A stretch of 64,000 bases of DNA from Persicimonas caeni (GTDB lineage: Bacteria > Myxococcota_A > Bradymonadia > Bradymonadales > Bradymonadaceae), in the NCBI RefSeq assembly GCF_006517175.1, contig NZ_CP041186.1, positions 3,871,074-3,935,073 of the forward strand, given 5' to 3'. Both the position numbers and the translations under genes were made by a program. Under the pieces are notes generated by a model. It did not search any database and had not been told where the DNA came from. It saw only the letters and a program-made list of their open reading frames with translations. Shown piece after piece: positions 19,538-44,029 of the stretch (the first letter of the stretch is position 1; the number at the start of each line of letters is the position of its first letter).

Positions 19538-19555
19538 TTTCGCCCCCCTCCCACC

Positions 19556-19592
19556 GGGAACTACATTCCCCGACGAGCCGCGCAGCATGCGG
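19556..19592 (-). repeat. REP-like sequence, copy a
   Basis: Contains GGGAACTACATTCCCC, then CGACGAGCCGCGC and GCATGCGG. It is the reverse orientation of the copies at 22729, 22866 and 43962. The palindromic core GGGAA-N5-TTCCC can form a small hairpin. It lies in the gap between two convergent genes. Confidence 0.75.
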
Positions 19593-19647
19593 CCGAGCGA
19601 CTCGTTGGTCCGTCGAAGTTCATGGACTCGTAGTCCCCTTTTCGATG

Positions 19648-21456: not shown

Positions 21457-21613
21457 CAAAATCCCCCATGTAGAGCTGGTGATGTGGCTTAAAGAACACG
21501 TTACAAGGTCATCCAACCAGAATGTGCAACGTCATTCAAATTTCCACCCATTTGGCATCGTCTGGCTCCACCATTTTCGTGGGACAGGTCCTTAGGGGGA
21601 CAGGAGGGGGACA

Positions 21614-21650
21614 GGAAACCACATTCCCCGACGAGGCCCGTCAAATGCGG
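21614..21650 (-). repeat. REP sequence, copy b, downstream of the RAYT gene
   Basis: GGAAACCACATTCCCCGACG followed by AGGCCCGTCAAATGCGG, in reverse orientation relative to copies c and d on the other side of the transposase. Just before it GGGGGACAGG-type units recur (21588-21615), which often accompany RAYT-associated ends. Confidence 0.8.
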
Positions 21651-21681
21651 TCGAGCGCGCCTTCGGCCAGTGCGTTCAAGC

Positions 21682-22602
21682 TCATGCGCACCGGCACAAG
21701 CCCGGTGGATGCGTCCCCGTAGGAAATGTCACCGAAGACTTGCCCCGGCGCCACCTTCCCATCGCCTGTTTGTAGGCGTCGACCGTGGTCATTCGCTCTT
21801 CGAGGTAAGCCTTCTTCTTCTCGGCGTCCGCGCACAGGCATTTGACTCGTGGATAGCATTTGGGAGCGGGAGGGCTATGCCGAACCTTCATGCGTTTGAG
21901 CTTGGCTGGGCCCACAACTCGCCTTCGCCGGCGCGCACGCTCCTTCTGCAGCTCGGTGGCCTGTTCCTCGACCTGAGCCACGATGAGTTGGCGGAGCTCC
22001 TCGTCGCTTTTGTCTTCCCACATTGGCGGCGTTGCGAGCACGAGCTCGTCGCTTCGCATCGCCTCTTCACGTGGCGTCGATGGGTCTTTTCTGCGCAGTC
22101 GGCGAAGCTCTTTGTAGTCGATGAGCCGTCCGACCTGCGCCTCGCCGGTCTGGTGGGACTTCCAGGACGACACCCCGGGCCAGTCGGCGGGATGGCGCAC
22201 TAGATCGGACAGGCAGGGGTTGTTGACGATGTACTTGAGCTTCTCCAGAAACATGTCGTCGCCGATGACCTTGGGTGCATCGAACGGGCGGGGGAACACG
22301 GTACCGGTGCGGTTACGGTGGCGGTTGAGTCGGGCGGCAAGCTCGCGCTGAAAGTCACGCATGAACTCGGACAGGTTCATCTTGGGGGCGCGCACGAGCA
22401 GGTGAAAATGGTTGCTCATGAAGACGTAGGCGAAGATCTCGACCTCGTGCTTCTGCGCAGCCCACGCCAGGCAGGCCAAACAGATGCGCTGCATCTCGCC
22501 GTCGTCGTCCGGGCGAATCAAGAACTTCGCCTCGATGCAGCGATTGGTGACGAAATAGAACGCATCGTCTTCGTAGATTCGGATATTATCGACGGCAGGC
22601 AT
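21682..22602 (-). CDS. REP-associated tyrosine transposase (RAYT, Y1/HUH family)
   Basis: About 306 residues from ATG 22602, with GGAGGA 8 bases upstream; ATG 22644 is possible. The HUH motif is in FMSNHFHLLVRAP, and the likely catalytic Tyr is in LEKLKYIVNNPCLSDLVRHP, in the typical RAYT context. The Y1 domain ends near residue 170. A long basic, Glu/Arg-rich C-terminal extension (ELQKERARRRRRVV) makes it longer than many RAYTs and may bind DNA. RAYTs are single-stranded-DNA nickases related to IS200/IS605 that act on REP hairpins. Here inverted REPs flank the gene (21614-21650 on one side, 22729-22766 and 22866-22903 on the other), so the unit looks like a self-contained REPtron. No frameshift or damaged motif is visible. 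Confidence 0.93.
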   Translation of the reverse strand: MPAVDNIRIYEDDAFYFVTNRCIEAKFLIRPDDDGEMQRICLACLAWAAQKHEVEIFAYVFMSNHFHLLVRAPKMNLSEFMRDFQRELAARLNRHRNRTGTVFPRPFDAPKVIGDDMFLEKLKYIVNNPCLSDLVRHPADWPGVSSWKSHQTGEAQVGRLIDYKELRRLRRKDPSTPREEAMRSDELVLATPPMWEDKSDEELRQLIVAQVEEQATELQKERARRRRRVVGPAKLKRMKVRHSPPAPKCYPRVKCLCADAEKKKAYLEERMTTVDAYKQAMGRWRRGKSSVTFPTGTHPPGLCRCA

Positions 22603-22728
22603 CGCGACGTTCCTCCGGGTAGAGTCAAACCAGTCAGCTCTCACTCTGGTTTTCGGCAGAACCGGCCAAATCGTTGCGTGCCAAACCCGAAAAAATTTTC
22701 CGCCGATCGATGCAGCAATGCCCCGAAA

Positions 22729-22766
22729 CCCGCATGAGCCGGGCCTCGTCGGGGAATGTAGTTCCC
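22729..22766 (+). repeat. REP sequence, copy c, upstream of the RAYT gene
   Basis: CCCGCATGAGCCGGGCCTCG then TCGGGGAATGTAGTTCCC. Same unit as copies d and e, inverted relative to copies a and b. The GGGAA/TTCCC pairing is intact. Confidence 0.85.
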
Positions 22767-22865
22767 GATCGGGAGGCAGAAATTCGGGGTTAAATTCTGT
22801 TTGGATCGCGTGCCGTCATCGAGTCTCGATTTGCGAAACCCCGGTGAGCAGAAAGGTCGCGATGA

Positions 22866-22903
22866 GCCGCATGAATAGCGGCTCGTCGGGGAACGTGGTT
22901 CCC
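22866..22903 (+). repeat. REP sequence, copy d
   Basis: GCCGCATGAATAGCGGCTCG then TCGGGGAACGTGGTTCCC. The core GGGAACGTGGTTCCC is a perfect hairpin with a three-base loop. A second GGTTCCCACGCAG follows directly. The segment 22645-22943 otherwise holds nothing I can support. Confidence 0.85.
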
Positions 22904-22943
22904 ACGCAGCGGTTCCCACGCAGGGGGGGATGGGGGGCGGGGG

Positions 22944-43817: not shown

Positions 43818-43961
43818 GAGTCGGTGCGTGCGGCCGCAGGTCTGTGGGGGAGTTTCAATGCGCCGGGGCCTTCTTACACCACGACCCATTCGAGCATCAA
43901 CGACGAAGAGAAGCGCCCCCCTGTAGAGGCGATCCGAAAAACGAGGCCGAACTTGCGCAGA

Positions 43962-43999
43962 CCCGCATGAACCGGGCCTCGTCGGGGAACCCCATTCCC
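43962..43999 (+). repeat. REP sequence, copy e (orphan)
   Basis: CCCGCATGAACCGGGCCTCG then TCGGGGAACCCCATTCCC, more than 21 kb from the RAYT gene. It sits in the gap 43818-44029. Its arm GGGAA-N5-TTCCC is intact. Confidence 0.85.
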
Positions 44000-44029
44000 T
44001 TACGGCGGGCGAAAATGATGGGCGAAAAA

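Follow-up and report, generated by a model that had tools for sequence, protein, structure and literature searches.

RAYT transposases are described as settled, mostly low-copy or single-copy genes for which autonomous mobility is not known, according to the accessible part of Quentin 2018 (PMC6006769). The same part of that work reports the subclasses with large C-terminal domains (2.1 and 2.3) without REPs, subclass 2.3 being exceptional in having several copies per genome, and defines subclass 2.1, which corresponds to Bertels group 1 and contains the TIRYTs, by the motifs NHVH or NH[YF]H, W[EQ] or FQ, YIELNP or Y[IV]HLNP and by a C-terminal HTH-like domain. The IS200/IS605 proteins (subclass 1.1) are characterized there by a Y---Q motif and a short, core-only protein. 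In the GTAG systems the tetranucleotide foot and the hairpin together determine recognition, as stated in the available sections of Corneloup 2021 (PMC8266576), and inverted REP doublets are named REPINs in what is accessible of PMC3116915. REPs with a CGTC foot have also been described; in the available text of Di Nocera 2013 (PMC3733652) families 1-4 occur without a flanking transposase gene and have a stem of 8-9 bp starting with A-T, a loop of 4-5 nt, a CCA-like tail and head-head dimers. Accumulation of REPs near rayt genes was reported in four bacteria, gamma- and betaproteobacteria, in the accessible portion of Nunvar 2010 (PMC2817692).

The window analyzed here, a stretch of 64,000 nt, occupies positions 3871074-3935073 of an 8.05-Mb single-contig genome. 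It contains at 21682-22602, on the minus strand, a RAYT gene (family A) encoding an HUH-Y1 transposase of 306 amino acids, assigned by its NHFH and YIVNNP motifs, its homologues and its fold. The start codon is the ATG at 22602, with GGAGG a little 5' of it. The protein matched Y1_Tnp at 1.1e-7 and the REP-associated tyrosine transposase family with 69.2 bits, under the cut-off of 80. The catalytic residues H65, H67 and Y124 are unchanged across 42 aligned homologues. The best structural match of its AlphaFold model (mean pLDDT 92.9) was the E. coli RAYT in complex with a REP hairpin, 4er8 (Z 15.4 over 156 residues, rmsd 2.7), followed by IS608 (Z 10.3 over 101 residues, rmsd 2.1), and Foldseek gave concordant results. 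Upstream of the gene, a conserved non-coding leader at 22640-22680 on the minus strand (ACGCAACGATTTGG..TGCCGAAAACC; pattern ACGCAACGAWTCGNCC..TGCCGAAAACC.TARTGAGGG) is common to family A, to a second family of the same genome (family B) and to the homologue of another genome, G008 (L141), and sits in all of them 50-100 nt 5' of the start codon. It may act as a promoter or serve as a binding site.

A reading of the sequence alone had considered the long basic C-terminus of the enzyme unusual and possibly responsible for recognizing this particular REP. Length and charge are real, residues 151-306 containing 36 K/R versus 22 D/E, but the region is common to the 42 aligned homologues and is a clade-wide trait. 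Moreover, the family-B enzymes have the same C-terminal plan as those of family A and a different palindrome; hence, the C-terminus alone cannot account for REP recognition. Modelled alone, residues 140-306 gave a poor structure (pLDDT 79, pTM 0.43), so that the lack of a Foldseek match at E <= 0.001 for this model has little meaning, and no HTH profile at E <= 1 was present among the listed Pfam matches of the 42 members. The protein resembles the TnpA_Y1 subclasses 2.1 and 2.3 in being long with a C-terminal region, and its NHFH and FQ agree with the motif list of subclass 2.1 (NH[YF]H and FQ). It differs from them in that YIVNNP or YIVCNP replaces Y[IV]HLNP or YVDLNP and in being accompanied by REPs, which were not reported for those subclasses.

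The proposal that the gene lies between inverted REPs was confirmed. The downstream REP unit, at 21609-21657 on the minus strand (core 21614-21634), forms the right end of the RAYT unit, and two units in the opposite orientation are located upstream on the plus strand, one inside the left end at 22723-22771 (core about 22745-22766) and the other outside the left terminus at 22860-22908 (core about 22882-22903). Two further REPs, beyond those recognized before, were found in the window, a free unit at 19551-19599 on the minus strand (core 19556-19576) and a diverged free one at 43956-44004 on the plus strand (core at 43979, 3 mismatches, loop CCC). No match to the REP core appeared in 100 dinucleotide shuffles of the window. 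Just beyond the downstream REP, GGGGGACAGG stands twice in tandem at 21596-21614 (plus strand), fitting the TIRYT motif GGGGWSAS with no inverted partner.

The REP is about 49 nt long and consists of a CCGCAT head, a CGTC foot, the hairpin GGGAAC-CTG-GTTCCC and a TTACG tail. The alignment of 57 copies, those with <=2 mismatches out of 70 cores at <=3, delimits the unit to about -23 to +25 relative to the core, with CCGCAT, TCGTC, GGGGAA-Y-S-T-R-S-TTCCC and TTACG as its conserved parts; the 13 cores left out are mostly mirror images of the palindrome, together with some true diverged REPs such as the one at 43979, and the DNA from which the copies were taken amounts to about 1.3 Mb of the 8.05 Mb, picked partly for its REPs. 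The near-invariant CGTC is placed directly 5' of the hairpin and the GCAT head about 16 nt farther 5'. Since CGTC adjoins the 5' side of the hairpin, it is CGTC, and not GCATGA as had been proposed, that occupies the guide position of known REPs. GCAT itself is present in the head, but the downstream copy reads GCATTT instead of GCATGA; its hairpin, GGGAATGTGGTTTCC, departs likewise from the GGGAA-N5-TTCCC plan, which is exact in two of the three copies first listed. Canonical REPs carry GT[AG]G or GTAG as the foot at the 5' side of the hairpin, whereas the family-A REP has CGTC in nearly all 57 copies, and the claim is therefore that of a REPtron with a non-canonical REP. The resemblance to the CGTC families 1-4 is limited to a short perfect hairpin with CGTC at one of its feet and to the extragenic location; the family-A REP differs from them in its stem, which begins with G-C, its loop of 3 nt, its TTACG tail, the flanking RAYT and the lack of head-head dimers. 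By a home-made ORF caller, only 2 of the 57 REPs lie within called genes, compared with 76.4% of the same DNA called coding, and the REPs are often located <=100 nt from a gene end. A two-hairpin form of the REP, with CCGCAT-NNA-ATGSGG pairing ahead of the main hairpin, was considered and is weak at best, because depending on the pair position 6 to 47 of 56 distinct sequences can pair, with little covariation. Half a REP with neighbouring DNA is duplicated in tandem (for example GGTTCCCACGCAGC twice) at 22897-22924 of the window and at 3940933, 5639322, 6776457 and 6818161 of its own genome (G000), as if copying had stalled at the hairpin.

The REP was found at 52 places in the full 8.05 Mb (<=2 mismatches; reversed control, 0), and its core (<=1 mismatch) is absent from all 114 other related genomes, being present in its own one alone of 115. 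Hence, neither of the outcomes that would have spoken against a complete REPtron, a REP found only here or one equally common where this RAYT is missing, occurred. The exact consensus gave a single match, in a Bacillales MAG, among the genomes of 84,980 species, a collection that may not include the own genome, and the headed REP pattern gave none among viral contigs. The copy number, the absence from the 114 other genomes and the single match among 84,980 argue for a real REPtron. Homologues of the enzyme at E <= 1e-20 are present in 17 of the 115 genomes, the own one included, with 14 in G043, 10 in G049 and 9 in G006. The nearest one, in G008 (51% identity), is flanked by a different REP, GTGGGTGGCACCCCGAC, which occurs at 21 places in G008, 1 in G000 and 1 in G006 (reversed control 2, 0 and 3, respectively); 9 of the 21 are within 3 kb of the G008 RAYT. 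An array of eleven exact G008 REP cores, mostly at a 34-nt step, is located at C1:4471621-4471991 of that genome, distant from the RAYT.

The RAYT is not alone in its genome. A RAYT profile gave 22 matches, and the window protein at E <= 1e-20 detected 19 RAYTs. Two belong to family A and are 87% alike; the other 17 belong to family B, with 40-43% identity to A and up to 99% to one another. None of the 19 listed matches has an internal stop, all frames being intact. Six more genes (for example, L051-L056 of G000) have stronger IS200-type Y1_Tnp scores and are distinct from the RAYTs. Homology between RAYT copies begins at AACAGA, 198-217 nt 5' of the ATG (18 of 19), and ends at the downstream palindrome. 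In the window, unit comparison places the left terminus AAACAGA, also found in family B, at 22796-22802 on the minus strand (TCTGTTT on the plus strand). The second family-A unit (L075), at 6.775 Mb, has matching ends and inverted REPs too, and homology between the two A units extends from near AACAGA, about 22801, to just beyond the downstream REP; the apparent unit thus excludes the REP at 22882, the second one upstream. The family-B palindrome, CGGTGTCWGACACCG, is located 5' of the gene in 17 of 17 units, with mismatches in some, and within about 290 nt on the 3' side in 15 of 17; exact matches to it number 38 in the own genome and one in each of 4 of the 114 others. The right end of the L085 unit lies about 250 nt beyond the stop codon.

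The units are dispersed and share their ends, and their 1.5-kb outer flanks are unrelated save for five stretches of 23-57 nt, so that the unit looks mobile; by sequence comparison it looks to behave as a mobile element bounded by AAACAG and the REP. An unlikely alternative is that the units are not self-mobile, the 19 copies having arisen by gene duplication, horizontal transfer or homologous recombination while settled, host-adapted RAYTs just process REPs. This would agree with the low copy number and the lack of known autonomous mobility of published RAYTs (PMC6006769, in its accessible part) and with a housekeeping-like picture, given by the 19 intact frames and by strong purifying selection between in-genome copies (dN/dS 0.05-0.15 in 10 of 10 pairs, which were selected and not exhaustive). 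However, homology stops at the same two ends with flanks that share only those short stretches, unlike in larger duplications, and copies whose DNA identity reaches 96-97% sit far apart. It is improbable that the enzyme is a TIRYT and the flanking palindromes are TIRs and not REPs, forming a TIRtron. The long C-terminal protein recalls the TIRYT-containing subclass 2.1 (PMC6006769, as far as its available text goes) and GGGGACAG, found twice just beyond the downstream REP, fits the published GGGGWSAS, but the matches to this motif between 21401 and 23100, at 21596, 21607 and 22940, are all on the plus strand and thus not inverted, and the palindromes form short hairpins, many of which occur free, away from any unit.

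Family-A REPs <=400 bp apart form 10 pairs in the same orientation and none in the opposite one, and the close neighbours of family B, whose orientation is set by the T at the palindrome centre, form 11 and 1, respectively. The check for REP pairs that had been suggested thus gave no inverted pairs among close A neighbours; these REPs follow one another head-to-tail without any inversion, and the REPIN reading was therefore rejected. The REPs cluster around RAYTs of their own family. Within 60 kb of the A RAYTs lie 18 of the 47 free A copies (expected 1.4, rotation p 0.0034), or 14 of 36 after collapsing copies that share flanks (p 0.0055), and within 30 kb of the B RAYTs lie 20 of the 31 B REPs (expected 3.7, p 0.0006). 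In the cross-control, none of the 47 A REPs was within 30 kb of a B RAYT (expected 6.0) and none of the 31 B REPs within 60 kb of an A RAYT (expected 0.9). Of the four distances tried, 60 kb gave the strongest result for A and 30 kb one of the strongest for B, with p values from 0.0002 to 0.048 at the others. Local clustering as such is not a new finding, since the available part of Nunvar 2010 (PMC2817692) already contains it; REPs within tens of kb of their own RAYT are common to both studies, and the rotation test, the two families in one genome and the cross-control distinguish the present one.

For two REP clusters, one at 0.17 Mb and the other at 4.27-4.36 Mb, the DNA examined contains neither a RAYT of family A nor a remnant of one. 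The copies in these clusters (G000 0.165-0.185 Mb, L097, and 4.265-4.362 Mb, L093-L096) belong to a GTACTTCCC subtype with left flanks in common, and the surroundings of the 4.3-Mb cluster are YD-repeat-like coding DNA with other genes resembling transposases. An Rhs or cassette-array origin was considered, as the 4.27-4.36 Mb cluster is YD-repeat-like by eye, but the 6.8 Mb cluster lies in ordinary intergenic DNA, so cassettes do not explain the REP family. Between 6.51 and 7.01 Mb of G000, the REPs point at the 6.775-Mb RAYT from both sides, since those on its left lie almost without exception on the plus strand and those on its right all on the minus strand. Free REPs are distributed as 33 minus and 8 plus in the part of the genome with positive GC skew and as 8 plus and 2 minus in the negative part, a replication-strand bias that is suggestive, because clustered REPs are not independent and those at 6.51-6.755 Mb are mostly opposite.

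Several REP copies have flanking DNA in common on one side only, in most cases with a limit at the 3' edge of the REP. In three copy groups, the left flank of the REP is common over widely differing lengths, about 28 to 340 nt, with up to 98% identity, and the match ends at +21 to +33, which is the 3' edge of the REP. In two pairs it is the right side that is common, from 3-4 nt ahead of the core. Copies that end at a fixed point on the right and at variable ones on the left could, on these alignments, reflect a one-ended movement by the Y1 enzyme; recombination at REPs could also be the source of one-sided flanks, and the pairs sharing the right side count against a strict rule of a fixed right end. 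That the REPs are passive hairpins, such as terminators or other functional palindromes, spread by recombination or slippage and only incidentally close to RAYTs, is very improbable: their extragenic position near gene ends, the tandem 35-nt repeats and half-REP duplications and the one-sided flanks would suit it, but two independent REP families each cluster at their own RAYTs and not at those of the other, the REP differs in the nearest relative that bears a RAYT, and none of the 114 other related genomes contains the family-A one.

The best explanation, to which we assign a probability of roughly 0.8, is that the locus is a REPtron, in which an HUH-Y1 (RAYT/TnpA_REP) transposase and its cognate REPs cooperate in spreading the REPs, the whole unit having apparently been moved too. 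The gene with its conserved catalytic residues, the inverted flanking REPs, the private REP family, the dispersed units with shared ends and the local clustering are direct observations, from which we infer cleavage, strand choice, mobility and the role of this enzyme as the maker of these REPs. The enzyme would most likely bind single-stranded REP DNA in its folded form, by the hairpin and the CGTC foot. Tyr124 would then nick next to the REP and the DNA would be rejoined at another site, with the outcome that REPs, singly or together with adjoining DNA, would spread mostly close to the gene. The entire unit, from AAACAG to the downstream REP, would apparently have moved as well, with two A and 17 B units at unrelated sites. 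Purifying selection between the in-genome copies also counts in favour of the REPtron explanation. Against it are the lack of a GTAG foot, the lack of inverted REP pairs, the clusters at 0.17 and 4.27-4.36 Mb, where the DNA examined has no family-A RAYT, and the copies with only the right flank in common.

Compared with the textbook REPtron, that of the E. coli enzyme of 4er8, the locus has the same HUH-Y1 fold, Y---NP motif, gene between inverted REPs and private cognate REPs, and differs in its long C-terminal region, in the 19 units in one genome and in its REPs, which have CGTC in place of GTAG as the foot and are single or head-to-tail and not inverted pairs. With IS200/IS605 it shares the Y1 fold, as indicated by the match to IS608, and dispersed similar units bounded by hairpins, but here a Y---NP motif (YIVNNP), a protein of 306 amino acids with a long C-terminus, inverted end hairpins and free REPs are found. 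We regard it as a genuine multicopy REPtron of the long-C-terminal clade with a private CGTC-footed REP, presumably active and with presumably mobile units. The literature searched, mostly papers outside subscription, contained neither a CGTC-footed REPtron nor RAYT units that are private and multiple in this way. More tentatively, and as a possibility that we hold with some doubt, these could be self-mobile RAYTs, a living link between IS200/IS605 and the settled, single-copy RAYTs. The unit from AAACAG to the REP, with its 19 intact copies, would then be one that keeps copying itself to new sites. The REP would be the fixed right end of a one-ended movement taking variable upstream DNA, the REPs left behind would be single or head-to-tail and not REPINs, and the enzyme would be the first dedicated transposase for CGTC REPs.

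The locus bears on how REPs spread, RAYTs being usually regarded as settled, single-copy genes, and many dispersed intact RAYT units are unusual for this kind of enzyme. It offers a candidate for the dedicated enzyme of CGTC-footed REPs, none having been found in the available text of Di Nocera 2013 (PMC3733652). Moreover, 19 intact units, in two families that combine different palindromes with the same left end and enzyme plan, together with REP breaks at a fixed 3' edge, provide a direct handle on the end, the choice of hairpin and the target.
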